A stretch of 28,454 bases of DNA from a virus. A program made the position numbers and the translations under genes. Every line of letters begins with the position of its first letter. Within the stretch, counting starts at the first letter, position 1. The DNA lies in IMG/VR virus record IMGVR_UViG_3300027985_001046, positions 1-28,454 of that record; one strand, 5' to 3'. The notes under the pieces were generated by a model. That model did no database searches, was not told the DNA's origin, and worked only from the letters and a program-made list of their open reading frames with translations. Positions 2,355 to 18,505 of this stretch are shown piece after piece.

Positions 2355-3380
2355 CTAGGCCCTCTCTCGCAGGGGGGTGATGGTGGCTGGCGTAGGTGAG
2401 TCTGCCCTATCGAACATCGGCTTACCCGCCAGGGCGATGTCACGTTGCTCACGTTCGGTGTCCCACCCGATGTACGTCTGGGTGACGCGGATGTCCTTGT
2501 GCCCGAGCATGGACGCAACCCGCATGAGGGCGGCGTCGTGGCCCACGGTGCGCAGCTGGTCGGCCAGGGCCCGGGCCCCGGAGCGGCGCAGGGTGTGCTC
2601 GCCCTGCCAGTAGGTGTCCAGCCCGAGCCGCTCGAGGGCACGCTGCACGGCCATGTAGGGCCGGTGGATGGGCTTGTCGGGGCGCAGGGGTGCGGGGGCG
2701 TCGGACACGCCGATGCGCCCGCTGGCGGGGTCGTAGAACGTGGCGGTGGGGTTCTTGGCGGGGATGAGGTACCACGTCTGGTGCACGGGCCCCTGGTCGG
2801 CGCGGTACCAGTTGAGCCAGCGGACCATCTCGCCGGCCAGCTCGGTGCACACGGGCAGCCGGTCGCCGCTCTTGGTCTTGGGCCGGTAGATGTGCAGGGC
2901 GTGGTTGTCGAGGTCGAGGTCGGCGACGCGGAGCCGCTGAATCTCGCTGCCGCGGAGGAACGTGTAGAGCCCGATGGCGCACAGGGCCCGATCGCGGGGG
3001 TGCGCGGCGGCGTCGAGGAGGCGGCCGAAGTCCTCGACGGGGACGCGGAGCTTGTCCGTCTCGGGGACGCGGATGGTGCGCCACCCGGCGGTGGGGTCGA
3101 AGTCTCTGGGCGCCATGCCGCAGCGGCTGGCCCACACGAAGAAGCCGCGCAGGTAGGACAGGTACAGGTTGCGGGTGGATTCCCGCCACCCGTAGTGGGC
3201 GAACAGCTGGTCGACGTGCGCGGGGGTGACGCTGGCGACGGTGATGTCGCCCCACAGGGCGATGGCCCGGCGCATCACCTGGGCGTTGTTGTTCACGGTG
3301 TTGGCGGCGAGGCCACGTGCTCGCAGGTGGCGCTCGTACTGATTCAGTGCGACGGGCAAGGGCTGGGACTTGCGGGCCAT
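2355..3380 (-). CDS. int: Tyrosine-family site-specific integrase
   Basis: A 341-aa tyrosine recombinase that would integrate the phage at a host attB and, with a helper, excise it. The N-terminal half (about 1-105) holds the SAM-like core-binding domain (YERHLRARGLAANTV, STRNLYLSYLRGFF). The catalytic domain carries the full set: R143 in FLRGSEI, K170 in PKTKSGD, H262-x-x-R265 in EHTLRRSG, H294 in MLGHKD and nucleophile Y303 in QTYIGW. The start chosen is the ATG at 3380, because GGAGG lies 6 nt upstream; an in-frame ATG at 3440 has no such site and falls inside the promoter. It is transcribed from the promoter at 3424-3453 and is adjacent to the attP core at 3471-3493. Length and motifs are normal. 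Confidence 0.95.
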   Translation of the reverse strand: MARKSQPLPVALNQYERHLRARGLAANTVNNNAQVMRRAIALWGDITVASVTPAHVDQLFAHYGWRESTRNLYLSYLRGFFVWASRCGMAPRDFDPTAGWRTIRVPETDKLRVPVEDFGRLLDAAAHPRDRALCAIGLYTFLRGSEIQRLRVADLDLDNHALHIYRPKTKSGDRLPVCTELAGEMVRWLNWYRADQGPVHQTWYLIPAKNPTATFYDPASGRIGVSDAPAPLRPDKPIHRPYMAVQRALERLGLDTYWQGEHTLRRSGARALADQLRTVGHDAALMRVASMLGHKDIRVTQTYIGWDTEREQRDIALAGKPMFDRADSPTPATITPLRERA

Positions 3381-3414: not shown

Positions 3415-3453
3415 TTGACATGCACCCTAACCGTGCTCATGGTGCAGTGTCAA
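3415..3453. repeat. Inverted repeat over the integrase promoter (operator-like)
   Basis: TTGACA-TGCACC at 3415-3426 on the plus strand faces TTGACA-C-TGCACC on the minus strand (3453-3441). The 39-bp segment is therefore a broad inverted repeat of two promoter/operator half-sites. This arrangement would suit a dimeric repressor. Protein binding is inferred. Confidence 0.55.
3424..3453 (-). promoter_or_regulatory. Integrase promoter
   Basis: Read on the minus strand, TTGACA (3453-3448) is separated by exactly 18 bp from TAGGGT (3429-3424), a close match to actinobacterial group 1 promoters. It is followed within about 45 bp by the integrase start. The spacer begins CTGCACCATG, the motif shared with the other promoter-like sites in the window, so repression by a common regulator is likely. 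Confidence 0.75.
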
Positions 3454-5277: not shown

Positions 5278-6170
5278 GCGACGACCCGGACACCCACGGC
5301 GGCGCCCACGACGAAGGCGTCCAGCGCGACGGCCGCGGCCGCCCCCTCATCGTCCCCGAGGGCGGGGGCAAGCCGATCGCCTACCAGCGGTGCTCCACGT
5401 TCGCCAAGACCCTGTCCGACTCGTCGGGGCTGATGGCGTGGAAGGTGCGGCAGGTGGTGAAGGGCCTGGCGATGGACCCCACCCTGCTCAACCACCTGCG
5501 CACGCAGCGGCTGGCCCCGGGCGACTGGGGCAACGCCGCGCTCGACCTGGTGGCCGATCGCGCGTTCGACGTGGCCGGGGCTGGGGAGTCCGCCGTCACC
5601 GGCACCACCATCCACGGCCTGACCGAATGGCTGGACGCCGGCGACGACATCGACTGGTCCGTACCCGACTTCCTGCCGTTCCGCGAGTTCGTGCTCGAGT
5701 ACCGGCGCCTGACCGCCGGGATCCGCATGATCGACATGGAGCAGTTCGTCGTCCACGACCAGCTGCAGGTGGCCGGCACCTATGACCGGCTGTGCGGGCT
5801 GCCCGCCCCGTACGACTGTGTGGCCATCGGCGACATCAAGACGGGCAAGCATGCGAAGCGCTCGCCGCATGAGCCGGCGATCCAGATGGGCACGTACGCC
5901 GAGTCGCGCCGGTACGACCCGGCCACGTGGCAGCGCTCCCCCATCCACCCGGACCTCAACCCGGACGTGGGCGTGCTGATCCACGTGCCGTCCAACGGGG
6001 AGCCGTCCGGGGTGTACATCCTCGACCTGGGCAAGGCCCGCCGGGTCGGTGTGCAGCTGGCGCACCTGACGAAGGCGTGGCGCCGCGCGAAGATCCTCAC
6101 CCCGTTCGAGCCGTCCGGGGTTGACATGCACCATGACCACGACAACGAAGGAGGCACGACCGGTGAGTGA
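5274..6170 (+). CDS. Cas4/RecB-like PD-(D/E)XK exonuclease
   Basis: A 298-aa protein of the RecB-nuclease/Cas4-like fold, which degrades or processes DNA ends in phage replication and recombination. Visible motifs in order: H114 in TTIHGLTEWL, D171 in VAGTYDRL, the D187-x-K189 pair in IGDIKTGK, and Q204-x3-Y208 in AIQMGTYAES, all the hallmarks of this superfamily. A Cys cluster for an iron-sulphur site as in true Cas4 is not evident, so the RecB-like exonuclease label is safer. It starts at a GTG coupled to the previous stop and overlaps the next gene by 8 bp. Neighbouring finger protein, helicase and primase genes make this a replication/recombination module. Confidence 0.8.
   Translation: MSDDPDTHGGAHDEGVQRDGRGRPLIVPEGGGKPIAYQRCSTFAKTLSDSSGLMAWKVRQVVKGLAMDPTLLNHLRTQRLAPGDWGNAALDLVADRAFDVAGAGESAVTGTTIHGLTEWLDAGDDIDWSVPDFLPFREFVLEYRRLTAGIRMIDMEQFVVHDQLQVAGTYDRLCGLPAPYDCVAIGDIKTGKHAKRSPHEPAIQMGTYAESRRYDPATWQRSPIHPDLNPDVGVLIHVPSNGEPSGVYILDLGKARRVGVQLAHLTKAWRRAKILTPFEPSGVDMHHDHDNEGGTTGE
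6121..6135 (+). promoter_or_regulatory. Copy of the TTGACA-TGCACCATG motif
   Basis: TTGACATGCACCATG lies in the 3' end of the nuclease gene, 28 bp before the GTG of the next gene. It is an exact copy of the motif core found at promoters. It also encodes part of the protein, so it could be chance or an internal promoter. No clear -10 at 17-18 bp is seen. Confidence 0.3.
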
Positions 6171-8464: not shown

Positions 8465-8684
8465 GGAGCTGCAGGCCCGCGCGGAGGCGCAGGCCGCGAA
8501 GCGTGAGGAGGCCCGGGTCGTGGCGATCCAGGCTGTTGGGGAGCTGGGCCGGGCGGTGCAGCTGCTCGACGCGGTGGTGGTCGAGGGGGCGCCGTGGATG
8601 GAGGTGCAGCGGCTGCACGGCAACATGCGCCGGCTGCTGCGCATCGTCGACGGGGCGACGTTGCGCGACGGGAGGGGCCGCTGA
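8448..8684 (+). CDS. Helical hypothetical protein
   Basis: A 78-aa protein, GTG start at 8448 behind a GGGAGAGG stretch. The sequence KATAEELQARAEAQAAKREEAR is a strong helix, followed by a second helical segment (VQRLHGNMRRLLRIVDGA). No family is recognised. TGA overlaps the next ATG (TGATG), which supports coupled expression. Confidence 0.55.
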   Translation: MKATAEELQARAEAQAAKREEARVVAIQAVGELGRAVQLLDAVVVEGAPWMEVQRLHGNMRRLLRIVDGATLRDGRGR

Positions 8685-11509: not shown

Positions 11510-11802
11510 CGGTTCACCGGGGCCGCGGCCATCTTCTTGAACACCGGGTCGGCGAGCAGATGCTCGATCGCAGGGGTGAACGTCACCCTGAGCAGCTCGT
11601 CCAACGGGGGCGGCGGCTCGTTGTCAGTGCGAGGAGCGAAGGGCCGCCAGCGGCTGCAGTGCCTTAGGCACGGGGCGCACACGTCGGCGCTGCCGAGCCG
11701 AGCCCACTCGTCGCCCATCATGTCGGCCGTGCCCACCTGGCACCAGTCATCCTCGCCGCTGTGGTAGGGCTCCGGACAATCGCACAGGATCCCGTCGCTC
11801 AC
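11506..11802 (-). CDS. Cys-rich hypothetical protein
   Basis: A 98-aa protein with GTG start coupled to the preceding stop. It has CDCPEPYH near residues 7-14, C21, and CAPCLRHC near residues 42-49, which could bind one or two zinc ions. The C-terminal half (LDELLRVTFTPAIEHLLADP) is helical. Function is unknown. Confidence 0.55.
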   Translation of the reverse strand: MSDGILCDCPEPYHSGEDDWCQVGTADMMGDEWARLGSADVCAPCLRHCSRWRPFAPRTDNEPPPPLDELLRVTFTPAIEHLLADPVFKKMAAAPVNR

Positions 11803-14125: not shown

Positions 14126-14745
14126 CGGGTGTCCCCGGCGATGCGGCGCACCGTGGCCACCAGATCGGCCAGGGTGCGCAAACCGGCCATCTGCACGTCC
14201 ACCTCCACATCGCTCGGCGTGTAGGCGTGCACATCCCACGCCCCGGCGCCGCCGCTGCTGCCGGCGTACAGGGTGGTGCTGGCGTACAGGGCGGAGCCGG
14301 CGCCGATGGCGTAGACGAACCGCAGGTCCAGCGTGTCGTCGAGCACGACGCCCGGGTGGGGCGCCGGGTAGCTCGCCCGCCATCCGAGCTTGGCCACGGC
14401 CTCGCTGATCGCCGCGGCCCGGTCGTACATGGCGGCGGCGGCCTCGGCTTTGGCGACGCGCTCGGCGTCGCGCTGGCGCCTGGCCTCGATCAGGCGGGTG
14501 CCGATGGTGCGGGCCCAGCGGTCGGCCGCGCCGTCACCGAGCTTGGTGGTGGAGTCGGCGCCGGACGGGGCGCCGCAGCGGGTGACCGCGGTGTCGCCGC
14601 GGGCGGTCAGGTGGGCGTAGGCGCCGGACTGCACGTGTTGCATGGTGGCGTAGCCGCTGCCGTTGCCGGTGAGCGCCCATCCGTGGTGCTCCACCAGGTC
14701 GGCGACGAAGCCGCGGAAACGGTCGGTCGGGGTTGGGGCGTTCAT
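14122..14745 (-). CDS. Hypothetical protein, first gene after the internal promoter
   Basis: A 207-aa protein. ATG at 14745 has GAGAGG about 8 nt upstream and lies 55 bp after the promoter-like site at 14800-14829. Residues 1-75 contain FVADLVEHHGWALTGNGSG and a beta-rich segment (SGAYAHLTARGDTAVTRCG). Residues 85-125 form a long Ala/Arg helix. The C-terminus ends LADLVATVRRIAGDTR. No known domain. Frame extends upstream of 14745 through the promoter but has no ribosome site there. Confidence 0.65.
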   Translation of the reverse strand: MNAPTPTDRFRGFVADLVEHHGWALTGNGSGYATMQHVQSGAYAHLTARGDTAVTRCGAPSGADSTTKLGDGAADRWARTIGTRLIEARRQRDAERVAKAEAAAAMYDRAAAISEAVAKLGWRASYPAPHPGVVLDDTLDLRFVYAIGAGSALYASTTLYAGSSGGAGAWDVHAYTPSDVEVDVQMAGLRTLADLVATVRRIAGDTR

Positions 14746-14799
14746 GGGTTTGCCTCTCTCGGTTGTGGGTAGCTCCGTTGTGGTGGCGGTGCTGGCATA

Positions 14800-14829
14800 A
14801 GCCTTGCATCTGGCACGGTGCATTGTCAA
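14800..14829 (-). promoter_or_regulatory. Internal leftward promoter/operator
   Basis: On the minus strand TTGACA (14829-14824) runs into ATGCACCGTGCCA, and AAGGCT follows after an 18-bp spacer. It matches the site at 18476-18505 over TTGACAATG-N2-CCGTGCCA and again at AGGCTT. The -35 overlaps the stop of the DUF6884-like gene, so it starts a second transcription unit inside the operon. Confidence 0.6.
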
Positions 14830-15383
14830 GTCTGCTGGTGGTGGCGGGCCGTCAGCCATCCCTTCTGCTGCCCGATGCCCAGCCCGGCCAGCGGCGTGGC
14901 GGTCACGTTGAGCCTGCCCAGTCGCAGCGCCTGGACGTACCTGGCGGGGCACCACGCCTCCACCTCGGCCGCCAGCAGGTGCACCGGCCAGCGCCAGTGC
15001 TCGGGCTGCCCGGGCATCTGCCGGTGGTAGCTGTCGAAGCATGCGGCCGAGTGGACCTTCGACCCGAGCAGGGTCACGTCGTCGTCGGTGGTCAGGGTCG
15101 CGTCGTACGGGTCGATGACGTCGGTGGGGCGCAGCAGCCCGTGCTTGGCGGACAGGATCACCCACGGGCGGCCGTCGGCCTCTGCTGCCCGGCGTGCGGC
15201 GGTGAACAGCTGGCCGCGGTACAGGTCGGCGGCGGGTGCCGCCTGGGGGCCCTTGCGGGCCCCGCAGGCGATCACCAGCAGGCGTGGCGTCACGGTGGGC
15301 GCCGGGGTTGGGGCCAGGTCGTCGAGGGTGAGCTGGCCGGGGATGTGGGCGTGCTCGAGCAGGTGTGCGCCCATGGCGCTCAC
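14826..15383 (-). CDS. DUF6884-like protein
   Basis: A 185-aa protein; GTG at 15383 is coupled to the preceding stop (GTGA), with an internal ATG at 15374 as alternative. After a Pro-rich leader it shows LLVIACGARKG, DLYRGQLFTAARRAAE, WVILSAKHGLLRP and DPYDATL, the ordered motifs of the DUF6884 family, which is found in phages and bacteria and resembles base-modification or nucleoside-processing folds. The biochemical role is unknown. The C-terminal part (WPVHLLAAEVEAWCPARY) is helical. The stop overlaps the -35 of the internal promoter. Confidence 0.65.
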   Translation of the reverse strand: MSAMGAHLLEHAHIPGQLTLDDLAPTPAPTVTPRLLVIACGARKGPQAAPAADLYRGQLFTAARRAAEADGRPWVILSAKHGLLRPTDVIDPYDATLTTDDDVTLLGSKVHSAACFDSYHRQMPGQPEHWRWPVHLLAAEVEAWCPARYVQALRLGRLNVTATPLAGLGIGQQKGWLTARHHQQT

Positions 15384-15871
15384 CACCCGCCTGCCGTGTG
15401 GAGCTCGGCTTCCAGGTCGTCGGCGGTGCCGATCATGGCGGCCAGGCGCAGTTCCCAGCGGCGGGTGTCGCCGCGGGATTCGACGGGTCCGGCGTTGGCC
15501 ATGTCCAGCTCGCCGTCCGTGCGGATGGGGGCGGTCATCAGCTCGCCGTCGACGTTCCACAGGGCGTGGCCGTGGGCGACCAGGTAGGTGCGGGGCTCGG
15601 GCATGGTGGGCTTGTCGTGGGCGGGTGCGGGGACCAGCTCGGCGACCCAGCCGGGTCCGTGGGCCCGTGCCTGCCAGCCGCAGCGGCACTCGGCGCCGAC
15701 GGTGGTGGAGTTGTCCCAGTCGACGTCCGTCTCGCCGTCCCACGTGGTGAGCACGTGGCCGTCTGCGTCCCGCTCGGCCAGGACGCCGGCGGTGCCGGTG
15801 AGGTGTTCGATGGTGGACAGGCCGTCGATGGCGCCGCAGCTGGGGCAGGCCATGGGGGTGCGCTCGGTCAT
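15380..15871 (-). CDS. Zinc-ribbon plus LVAHGHA-motif protein
   Basis: A 163-aa protein; ATG at 15871. The N-terminal part has CPSC (residues 9-12) and CRCG (near 60), likely a zinc ribbon. The C-terminal part (PRTYLVAHGHALWNV, then DGELDMANAGPVESRGDTRR) repeats the layout of the protein at 13583-13861. The two share TxLVAHGHA, an AP motif and a DxAxAxPV block, so it is a fusion of a zinc domain with that domain. Function unknown. Confidence 0.6.
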   Translation of the reverse strand: MTERTPMACPSCGAIDGLSTIEHLTGTAGVLAERDADGHVLTTWDGETDVDWDNSTTVGAECRCGWQARAHGPGWVAELVPAPAHDKPTMPEPRTYLVAHGHALWNVDGELMTAPIRTDGELDMANAGPVESRGDTRRWELRLAAMIGTADDLEAELHTAGGW

Positions 15872-16126: not shown

Positions 16127-16546
16127 TCACGCCTCCCGCCGGTCGTGGACGGACAGGGCGCCGTAGAACCGGTGCCCCAGCACCTCGCGCAGCACGTCGC
16201 CCACCCGGGAATCCGAGCTGTGGGCGAAGTTGCCGCCGGCCATGTAGTGCACACGGTCCCGCAGGTAGCGGGTGCCGTCCGGGGACAGGCCCACGGGCAC
16301 CAGGTGCACCGTGCCGGCGGTCAGCTCGAGCGCCACCGCGGGCGCCTGGTCGGACGCATCCCACAGCCGGCAGTCGTCGGGCATGGGCCGGACCGGCGCA
16401 GGGTCGGCGCCGTTGCCGATGAACGGCAGGACCGTGCCCACCAGGGTCAGCCGGTCACGCACGGCGGTGATGCCGCCGTTGGTGCAGTCAGGTGTGGTGC
16501 GGGCCACGTACAGCCGCATCCCCTGCACGGGGGTTGTCTCACGCAT
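16127..16546 (-). CDS. Hypothetical protein behind hammerhead ribozyme 3
   Basis: A 139-aa protein; ATG at 16546 with AGAGAGG about 7 nt upstream. The sequence (GMRLYVARTTPDCTNGGI, LELTAGTVHLVPVGLSPDGT, HYMAGGNFAHSSDSRVGDVLREVLG) suggests a mixed alpha/beta fold. No family recognised. Its mRNA would begin with the 22-nt stem I hairpin left by cleavage of the ribozyme at 16570-16624, giving a 56-nt leader. Confidence 0.6.
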   Translation of the reverse strand: MRETTPVQGMRLYVARTTPDCTNGGITAVRDRLTLVGTVLPFIGNGADPAPVRPMPDDCRLWDASDQAPAVALELTAGTVHLVPVGLSPDGTRYLRDRVHYMAGGNFAHSSDSRVGDVLREVLGHRFYGALSVHDRREA

Positions 16547-16569
16547 GGTTCGCCTCTCTCTCGGTTGGC

Positions 16570-16624
16570 TGGCTCATCAGCACCCGGGAGCCACCCCGGG
16601 TGGACGCCTCACGGCGTTTCGCCA
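16570..16624 (-). ncRNA. Type II hammerhead ribozyme 3
   Basis: On the minus strand, 5' to 3': stem II strand UGGC (16624-16621), GAAA (16620-16617, last A starts stem III), stem III ACGCC/GGCGU with GUGA loop (16617-16604), C17 at 16603, stem I CACCCGGG/CCCGGGUG with loop GUGGCU (16602-16581), CUGAUGA (16580-16574), stem II strand GCCA. All invariant core bases are present: CUGAUGA, GAAA, the A-U pair at the base of stem III and a GUC cleavage triplet. Cleavage is predicted between 16603 and 16602. It starts 10 nt after the upstream stop codon. Confidence 0.9.
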
Positions 16625-16634
16625 CGCGCTCGCC

Positions 16635-16919
16635 CTAGCCCTTGCGGGCGGCCAGGCGGTCCAGGTCCGCGGTCACTGCGGCGATGCGCTGCGTGTGCAG
16701 GGCCACCGTGTGCCCGCGCCCAAGCCAGCACGGGGCGCACCGCGGGTCGTACGGGACGGTTCCCTGGTCGATGTGCCACCAGGCGACGGGGGTCACGTCG
16801 TCCGGCCCGGCGCAGTGCACCGTCTCGCGGCCACCGTCGGCGGTCGGATGGGTCCGCACCCATCCACGGGTGTAGGGGATGCGGCGGAATGTCACGTCGC
16901 CGCGGTTCATGTCAGCCAT
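16635..16919 (-). CDS. Hypothetical protein
   Basis: A 94-aa protein; ATG at 16919, with MNRG at 16910 as alternative. It contains CAG, then DPRCAPCWLGRGHTVALH, giving a Cys/His cluster that may bind zinc, and a C-terminal helix (RIAAVTADLDRLAARKG). It is encoded 3 bp after the preceding gene and its stop is 10 nt before ribozyme 3, so its mRNA would end in the ribozyme's stem III hairpin. Confidence 0.6.
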   Translation of the reverse strand: MADMNRGDVTFRRIPYTRGWVRTHPTADGGRETVHCAGPDDVTPVAWWHIDQGTVPYDPRCAPCWLGRGHTVALHTQRIAAVTADLDRLAARKG

Positions 16920-16922
16920 GGG

Positions 16923-17117
16923 TCAGTCGTCCTCCACGTGGGCGTGCACCACGGGCAGGTCGTCCCCGTGCTGCGCCTGCGCCTCGGCCACGCTGTCGTA
17001 CCAGTAGCGGCCGTCCCCGTCGGGGGCCACGACCATGGCCGACCCGTCGCCCACCGCGTAGATCACGTCGAGCTTCTGCCCGGCCCGTGTCACGTACCCG
17101 CTTGCCCACCGTGCCAT
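16923..17117 (-). CDS. Small beta-type hypothetical protein behind ribozyme 2
   Basis: A 64-aa protein; ATG at 17117 with GAGAGAGG about 10 nt upstream. The sequence KLDVIYAVGDGSAMVVAPDG and RYWYDSVAEAQAQHGDD suggests three strands and a helix. No known family. Its leader after ribozyme cleavage would be 57 nt. Confidence 0.6.
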   Translation of the reverse strand: MARWASGYVTRAGQKLDVIYAVGDGSAMVVAPDGDGRYWYDSVAEAQAQHGDDLPVVHAHVEDD

Positions 17118-17142
17118 GTTGCGTGTCCTCTCTCGTGTGCCT

Positions 17143-17205
17143 GCCTCATCAGCGCCCCGGCGGCACCCGGGGCGAACCGGGCCCGGTCGGGGGCCCGGTT
17201 TCGGC
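17143..17205 (-). ncRNA. Type II hammerhead ribozyme 2
   Basis: On the minus strand, 5' to 3': stem II strand GCC (17205-17203), GAAA (17202-17199), stem III ACCGGGCCC/GGGCCCGGU (9 bp, loop CCGACC, 17199-17176), U17 at 17175, stem I CGCCCCGG/CCGGGGCG with loop GUGCCG (17174-17153), CUGAUGA (17152-17146), stem II strand GGC. Stems I and III are perfectly paired. The cleavage triplet is GUU, an allowed NUH site, so cleavage falls between 17175 and 17174. It starts 3 nt after the clamp stop codon. Confidence 0.9.
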
Positions 17206-17208
17206 TGG

Positions 17209-18024
17209 TCAGGACGGCAGCCGGACCGGCATCAGCACCGCGCTGTACGCGGCCCCGTCGAGGGCGGACGTGGCACCCGTGACCCGCAGCAGCGTGGGAA
17301 CCTCGCCGCCCGGCAGGGCCTGCAACGTGGCGTCACGGCCGGCGGCGACCGTCGCGGCCTTGCAGGCGTCGCCCATGAAGCACGCCTTCCAGGCGTCCAC
17401 GTCGCCCTTGCGTGCCTTGCGGGACGTGAACTTGCGCCACGGCAGCCACGCGGGGTCCGCGGTCGACTGGTCGACGTGCACCGTGCCCCCGGCGTGGCGC
17501 AGCTCCACCCACGTGCCGCCGTCGACGTCACCCTTGCGGGTCAACGGCACCGCAAGGGCCACCGTGCGGGCGGACTTGGGGATGCCTGCCAGCAGCTGGC
17601 GCGCCGCGGCCACACCCAGCAGCACCGGCAGGCGCTTGTCCGGCTGCACACCCGCGCCCTCCACCTGGTCGGCCGGGCGGTCCGCGTGCACCGACAGCGT
17701 TGACCACGCCATCCGGTAGCGGTCCGTCGCCACCACGGTCACGGCCCAGCCGCCAGCACCGGGCAGCCCGGCACCCGTGTGCCACCCCCGGTCCAGCCCA
17801 CCGGCGTGGCGGTCCGCCGGGCCCAGCTCCACCAGCACGTCACACACCGTCGTGCCCGGCACCGCGTCACGGTTGGCAGGTGCGGCGTGCAACGCCCACG
17901 CCAGCGCCGAGCGCAGACGCTCCGCCGGCAGATCCACCAGCAGGGTCCAGCCGTCGCCCGATCCCTCACGCACCGCGCCCACCGGCGCCACCAGCTCCAC
18001 ACGTGCATCCGTCGCAACACTCAT
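17209..18024 (-). CDS. Beta sliding-clamp-like (DnaN) protein
   Basis: A 271-aa protein related to the DNA polymerase III beta clamp. Two family signatures are visible: VTVVATDRYRMAWSTL (about 95-110), matching the LVATDxYRLA motif, and the extreme C-terminus AVLMPVRL, matching the conserved MPxRL end. It is shorter than bacterial DnaN (about 370 aa), so one subdomain may be reduced. A clamp holds the polymerase on DNA; no polymerase gene is in the window, so it may act with the host enzyme or compete with the host clamp. ATG 18024 is used because GAGAGG is 8 nt away; the adjoining GTG at 18027 is the alternative. It lies between ribozymes 1 and 2, so its mRNA would be released as a monocistronic message. 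Confidence 0.65.
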   Translation of the reverse strand: MSVATDARVELVAPVGAVREGSGDGWTLLVDLPAERLRSALAWALHAAPANRDAVPGTTVCDVLVELGPADRHAGGLDRGWHTGAGLPGAGGWAVTVVATDRYRMAWSTLSVHADRPADQVEGAGVQPDKRLPVLLGVAAARQLLAGIPKSARTVALAVPLTRKGDVDGGTWVELRHAGGTVHVDQSTADPAWLPWRKFTSRKARKGDVDAWKACFMGDACKAATVAAGRDATLQALPGGEVPTLLRVTGATSALDGAAYSAVLMPVRLPS

Positions 18025-18049
18025 CACGCGCCCCTCTCACGATCGACTC

Positions 18050-18107
18050 GGCTCATCAGCGCCCGGACGTCACCCCGAGCGGACACCCCCTACGGGGGTG
18101 TTTCGCC
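18050..18107 (-). ncRNA. Type II hammerhead ribozyme 1
   Basis: On the minus strand, 5' to 3': stem II strand GGC (18107-18105), GAAA (18104-18101), stem III ACACCCCC/GGGGGUGU with GUA loop (18101-18083), C17 at 18082, stem I CGCUCGGG/UCCGGGCG with loop GUGACG (18081-18060), CUGAUGA (18059-18053), stem II strand GCC. All catalytic bases and a GUC cleavage triplet are present, with cleavage between 18082 and 18081. Stem I uses two G-U pairs. It starts 1 nt after the stop of the upstream gene. Confidence 0.9.
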
Positions 18108-18108
18108 T

Positions 18109-18429
18109 TCACTCCCACACGTCCCCGTGGGTCAGCTGCCGCAACGCCACGAAACTGGCGAAACCGAACAGGTTCACGTCGAATACCCAACGCTCCACGT
18201 CCCACGCCAGCGCCAGCGTCGGCCACCCGTTCACGTCCACCAGGTGCACACGGCCCCCGAACACCTGCGCCGCGTCCGACCACGGCACCGCGTCGGACGG
18301 GTCGACCATCGCCAGCACCACGACCGAACCCTTCGGGTCCGGCACCAGCTCGCACTCACGGCATCCGTCCACACCACACCCTGCTGCCAGTCGCGTCCCC
18401 ACCTGCACCGACATGCCCAGCTCGTCCAT
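18109..18429 (-). CDS. First gene of the leftward operon, hypothetical
   Basis: A 106-aa protein; ATG at 18429 behind an A/G-rich ribosome site (GAGAGG, AGGGG). Residues about 16-24 (CGVDGCREC) hold three Cys. The rest is hydrophobic and beta-rich (VVVLAMVDPSDAVPW, RVHLVDVNGWPTLALAW, WVFDVNLFGFASFV). No family recognised. It is transcribed from the promoter at 18476-18505 and its stop codon abuts ribozyme 1. Confidence 0.6.
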   Translation of the reverse strand: MDELGMSVQVGTRLAAGCGVDGCRECELVPDPKGSVVVLAMVDPSDAVPWSDAAQVFGGRVHLVDVNGWPTLALAWDVERWVFDVNLFGFASFVALRQLTHGDVWE

Positions 18430-18475
18430 GTCCTGCCCCTGCCTCTCCCGCCGGCCGATCCGGCGAACACGGCAA

Positions 18476-18505
18476 AGCCTGCGGCATGGCACGGATCATT
18501 GTCAA
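18476..18505 (-). promoter_or_regulatory. Main leftward promoter/operator
   Basis: On the minus strand TTGACA (18505-18500) runs into ATGATCCGTGCCA, then CAGGCT after an 18-bp spacer. The site matches the one at 14800-14829 at most positions and shares TGATCC-R-TGCCAT with the early promoter at 4542. It lies about 50 bp upstream of the first leftward gene. Confidence 0.6.

Follow-up and report, generated by a model that had tools for sequence, protein, structure and literature searches.

Three type II hammerhead ribozymes in the intergenic gaps of a leftward phage operon and their probable role in processing an early transcript

The virus record analysed here (IMG/VR, 28,454 bases of 72% G+C, referred to as the window) has terminase and portal genes that run rightward from about 19.3 kb and a run of leftward genes at lower coordinates. 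Three hammerhead ribozymes lie within 1.6 kb of this leftward run, each on the genes' strand and each filling a gap between co-oriented genes (Table 1), in line with the first-pass annotation, which had placed them between genes of one phage operon. The upstream stop codon stands 0, 2, and 10 nt before copies 1, 2, and 3, respectively, and the next start codon follows the Rfam element after 15, 17, and 16 nt. The sole ribozyme-free gap of the stretch is the one between the 64-aa and 94-aa genes, whose 3 nt leave no room for a ribozyme. The first gene of the unit more likely starts at an internal ATG near 18429; searches of Pfam, PHROG, and NCBIfam returned no family match for it, and most of the ribozyme-flanking proteins are likewise without a family assignment in these searches. 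Farther down the same gene run, at 14826-15743 on the minus strand, lies a gene for a DUF6884-domain protein (Pfam, 93.9 bits).

Table 1. Genes, promoter-like box, and ribozyme parts in the leftward gene run (window positions; cleavage sites are predicted)
Feature	Position	Strand	Detail
Promoter-like box TTGACAATGATCCGTGCCA	18470-18505	-	ahead of first gene; sequence similarity
First gene of leftward unit	18109-18492	-	longest reading 127 aa; stop adjoins ribozyme 1
Hammerhead II copy 1	18043-18108	-	RF02276 57.2 bits, descriptor, and fold
Copy 1 parts		-	stem II GGC 18107-18105; GAAA 18104-18101; stem III 18101-18083; stem I 18081-18060; CUGAUGA 18059-18053; stem II 3' strand 18052-18050
Copy 1 predicted cleavage site	18082/18081	-	
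Copy 1 pseudoknot	18044-18072	-	loop I UGAC 18072-18069 with tail GUCG 18047-18044
272-aa gene	17209-18027	-	between ribozymes 1 and 2
Hammerhead II copy 2	17135-17206	-	RF02276 46.2 bits, descriptor, and fold
Copy 2 parts		-	stem III 17199-17176 (9 bp); stem I 17174-17153; CUGAUGA 17152-17146
Copy 2 predicted cleavage site	17175/17174	-	after GUU
Copy 2 pseudoknot	17137-17166	-	loop I GUGCC 17166-17162 with tail GGCAC 17141-17137; 5 Watson-Crick pairs
64-aa gene	16923-17117	-	3' of ribozyme 2
94-aa gene	16635-16919	-	3 nt past 64-aa gene
Hammerhead II copy 3	16563-16624	-	RF02276 55.1 bits, descriptor, and fold
Copy 3 parts		-	stem III 16617-16604 (5 bp); stem I 16602-16581; CUGAUGA 16580-16574
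Copy 3 predicted cleavage site	16603/16602	-	after GUC
Copy 3 pseudoknot	16566-16593	-	loop I UGGCU 16593-16589 with tail AGCCA 16570-16566; 5 Watson-Crick pairs
139-aa gene	16127-16546	-	3' of ribozyme 3; phrog_6045

The 272-aa protein had been read as a sliding clamp, an identification that we do not retain. Its match to the DnaN family PF02767 is a short one to domain 2 around TDRYRMA and scores 12.4 bits, below the cut-off of 27, and other support is lacking: no relevant sequence match was found in Pfam, PHROG, NCBIfam, or PDB, the protein has no similarity to an annotated mycobacteriophage clamp or a neighbouring TM4 protein, and its single-sequence fold (pLDDT 31) was unusable. A search of IMG/VR gave no relatives of either the 272-aa or the 139-aa protein.

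A single transcript likely spans the three copies, judging from the co-orientation and tight spacing of the genes and from the promoter-like box (TTGACAAT..CCGTGCCA) that stands ahead of the first gene at 18505 and has a similar counterpart at 14829, the interval being free of TTGACA. A consensus promoter scan called no sigma-70 site for this box. On the minus strand, the leader CCGAGAGAGGC(A/G)AACC precedes a start codon both after a ribozyme (16546-16563) and after the promoter-like box (14740-14829), as if it were a ribosome-binding module common to different cassettes. Elsewhere in the window, an imperfect inverted repeat (TTGACATGCACC...GGTGCAGTGTCAA, 3415-3453), for which a half-site of similar sequence lies at plus-strand position 6121, is a possible operator or divergent promoter.

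All three copies match the full Rfam model of the type II hammerhead (RF02276, positions 1-66) on the minus strand, above its cut-off of 37 bits and with E-values of 1.6e-9 to 1.2e-6, and no further match at or above the cut-off occurs in the window. An independent structural descriptor made of stems and core, leaving the pseudoknot aside, found the same three copies in the window and no others, and gave none in an order-1 Markov control of 1.15 Mb. The core is intact in every copy (CUGAUGA, GAAA, and the A15.1-U16.1 pair closing stem III), residue H17 is C, U, and C in copies 1 to 3 and never G, and both the RF02276 alignment and the fold give an open stem II (3 bp) with loop-closed stems I and III. 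Stem I consistently has 8 bp and a 6-nt loop, while stem III has 8, 9, and 5 bp. The first-pass annotation had named this class, a core with an NUH site, an 8-bp stem I, and a stem III of 5-9 bp, all of which the covariance-model search and the structure bear out, and its three cleavage positions are the same as those predicted here from structure. Its element locations hold as well, but not its 3' ends: the real elements reach about 4-8 nt farther because the pseudoknot strand belongs to them. GC-rich stems III and I between genes could also be hairpins that end transcription or simply stabilise the mRNA, and not ribozymes; yet such hairpins need no invariant CUGAUGA, GAAA, and UH core, no U-run follows the stems, and a terminator scan found none here on the minus strand, and we regard this explanation as next to impossible.

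Fast cleavage in the type II class depends on a pseudoknot, overlooked in the first-pass annotation, in which loop I pairs with the tail beyond stem II, and type II hammerheads usually rely on this contact (Perreault et al. 2011, PMC3088659). A pseudoknot of at least 4 pairs, a majority feature of the class, is present in copies 1 to 3. Their loop I sequences are GUGACG, GUGCCG, and GUGGCU, and by Watson-Crick count each loop finds its best or an equally good partner among the three tails in its own. The pseudoknot of copy 1 is the weakest, with 3 Watson-Crick pairs and 1 G-U pair (Watson-Crick core GAC/GUC). At position 3 of the shared register UG(N)C, the copies have A-U, C-G, and G-C, which amounts to covariation within one genome and extends to the pseudoknot what had been claimed for the stems, namely that pairing is kept while sequences differ. 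Among the matches listed, 211 distinct viral copies were collected with a pattern blind to the pseudoknot; 127 of them form at least 4 Watson-Crick pairs at this place compared to 45 with shuffled partners, and at least 5 pairs are found in 69 of the 211 compared to 10.5.

Self-cleavage is a predicted activity of all three copies. The hammerhead fold is the minimum free energy (MFE) structure of copy 1 before any pseudoknot energy is added; with the pseudoknot energy likewise left out, the MFE structures of copies 2 and 3 lie 2.6 and 0.7 kcal/mol below the hammerhead fold. Copy 2 is the likeliest slow one, given its GUU site (U at H17) and the competing fold, and copy 1 may also cut slowly because of its weak pseudoknot.

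The first-pass annotation had considered three such copies unusual and outside standard annotation, but RF02276 exists for precisely this class, a pattern scan of IMG/VR found the hammerhead pattern in at least 120 viral stretches, and Rfam searches of whole records found as many as 11 matches in one record (among records picked partly for multiple copies). In a set of 200 viral copies that do not lie near contig ends (among the matches listed), with mechanical ORFs as genes, 151 have a stop codon upstream and a start codon downstream in place, compared to 43 in antisense and 27-37 at random positions. Stops peak 0-4 nt ahead of stem II (78 of the 167 copies with an upstream stop) and starts cluster 25-34 nt past the core, again among the matches listed. 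Annotation mainly agrees with our ORF calls in four annotated phages, except for copies inside genes with doubtful starts. A common function of the downstream proteins was sought and discarded, as no family occurs in more than 4 of 87 (among the matches listed); one downstream protein in the viral survey has an ArdC match.

Together with this positional rule, the lack of a common family downstream suggests a general intercistronic processing role, which fits best. The peak of stop codons would also suit regulated switches in which cleavage answers a ligand, magnesium, or a ribosome finishing the upstream gene and tunes the next one, since a ribosome terminating at that distance would sit over the 5' strand of stem II, and ligand or protein control of hammerheads in general was raised previously (Perreault 2011, PMC3088659). 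However, the copies have no extra ligand-binding domain, their stems I and III are short with loops of 3 to 6 nt, and unrelated downstream genes fit general processing better than a specific signal. We consider such regulation unlikely and general processing the better account.

Streptomyces phages are among the records that gave several matches. Phage R4 (JX182370) has 9 copies above the cut-off, Hank144, Spernnie, and Loofah have 7, 8, and 11 within the stretches searched, phiELB20 has 10 matches, and Caelum has 10 of which some are below the cut-off; in all six, every copy is on the minus strand in one leftward operon. Corresponding gaps often keep ribozymes among these phages. As in the window, the arrays lie in a leftward operon of the early region, the ribozyme fills the gap from stop codon to ribosome-binding site, and the start codon mostly follows 7-22 nt past the element (15-17 nt in the window). 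They differ in having 7-11 copies per genome compared to 3 here, and their genes have no detectable homology to those flanking the window's ribozymes. The annotated R4 genes gp60.1, gp67.1, and gp75.1 (3263-3346, 5626-5718, and 8574-8675; 27-33 aa) each enclose an entire type II hammerhead and probably represent ribozymes rather than genes, while the 5' ends of gp72, gp76, and gp81 as annotated run through hammerheads, probably due to starts annotated too far upstream. In Spernnie, a single base separates two adjacent type II hammerheads at 11573-11701, and a very short RNA would be excised if both cut. In Hank144 and Loofah, a hammerhead stands ahead of an OCR-like antirestriction gene, recalling the ardA association described by Perreault 2011 (PMC3088659).

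The window has no near DNA relatives among phage records. Its terminase is nearest to those of Streptomyces phages and about 41% identical to Beephvirinae terminases, and hammerheads are absent from six named phages whose terminases are related, including four from the Beephvirinae. The closest hammerhead-bearing terminase relative in IMG/VR (48% identity) is on a phage-like Streptomyces hoynatensis contig of 46,451 bases with one type II hammerhead (52.8 bits). This element resembles those of the window in lying on the same strand, leftward, about 3 kb before the terminase and adjoining a stop codon, but it is a single copy and its flanking genes are not recognisably homologous. Five other terminase relatives found in IMG/VR, some of them short fragments, have no hammerhead. 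In Saccharothrix sp. ALI-22-I, a type II hammerhead immediately precedes the gene of a relative of the 139-aa protein (33% identity), the arrangement seen at copy 3, though this may be fortuitous, as the Saccharothrix array has a ribozyme near most of its genes. It is the one point at which this exact locus could be compared, as close relatives of most of the genes were not found, and the mycobacteriophages TM4, TClif, and McProf with phrog_6045 relatives have no hammerheads.

The total absence of hammerheads from the six phages with related terminases is what one might expect if these elements were hitch-hikers or in decay and had little effect, in which case the motif would persist between genes as easily evolved and harmless; random-RNA selection indeed readily yields hammerheads (Perreault 2011, PMC3088659). 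We find this very improbable in view of the intact core of all three copies with a pseudoknot that changes in step, the strong same-strand intercistronic placement of some 200 viral copies (among the matches listed), and the many corresponding gaps retained in Streptomyces phages.

Type II hammerheads and their prophage clusters flanking single genes were described by Perreault et al. 2011 (PMC3088659), who reported that three tandem arrangements self-cleave in vitro and that a triple array from Agrobacterium does so in E. coli, and who proposed processing into operon- or gene-length mRNAs; a 2017 review (PMC6155905) still listed the role of phage hammerheads as an open question. The window shares with those clusters the architecture, the core, the loop I/tail pseudoknot, and the presence of several copies flanking genes or short blocks, but it comes from a new, uncultured high-GC phage and has other flanking genes. 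Phage type II hammerhead clusters are thus a common kind known since 2011 to which the window adds a further three-copy case. Theta (HDV-like) ribozymes of gut phages (PMC10879173) are also phage-encoded self-cleaving RNAs with proposed transcript processing, but their fold is unrelated and their proposed targets are tRNA 3' trailers, not mRNAs. Hammerhead arrays of Streptomyces phages were not found in the literature by a search that reached few subscription journals, and we claim no priority for them.

We consider it highly probable that the three hammerheads process a leftward early transcript of this dsDNA phage, their most likely function being to cut one early transcript co-transcriptionally into mRNAs that carry one or two genes. 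The ribozymes would fold while emerging from the polymerase, the loop I/3'-tail pseudoknot would keep stems I and II together, and each copy would cut itself 3' of H17. Four products are expected: a piece with the first gene, the 272-aa gene at 18081-17175 (907 nt), the 64-aa and 94-aa genes at 17174-16603 (572 nt), and the remainder from the 139-aa gene on. Stem III would form a hairpin carrying a 2',3'-cyclic phosphate at the 3' end of each upstream piece; each downstream piece would start at a 5'-OH with stem I folded as a hairpin, possibly with the pseudoknot, and its ribosome-binding site would come just past the pseudoknot strand. Since both new ends would be structured, the probable benefit is that translation and decay of adjacent early genes are uncoupled. 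The predicted unpaired fraction of the ribosome-binding sites rises from 0.35, 0.58, and 0.57 before cleavage to 0.53, 0.70, and 0.72 after it, values that were computed without pseudoknots or controls and that we do not count as evidence.

The structure of these ends allows a more tentative idea, "cut and cap", which we see as possible though doubtful. Loops of about 1 nt, the 8-bp stem I, and a connector of about 11 nt suggest that stem I and the loop I/tail pairing may persist after cleavage as a 5'-terminal H-type pseudoknot, with stem III capping the upstream 3' end, so that the resulting mRNAs would be independently lived and resist 5'-end-dependent decay (RNase J, RNase E).

The window provides a clear three-copy case, and its comparison with other phages gives a sharp order of stop codon, ribozyme, ribosome-binding site, and start codon. 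Arrays of 7-11 copies in named phages, including R4 on Streptomyces coelicolor, make the processing hypothesis directly testable. If "cut and cap" is true, phages carrying arrays of this kind would divide a single early transcript into end-protected, independently lived mRNAs.
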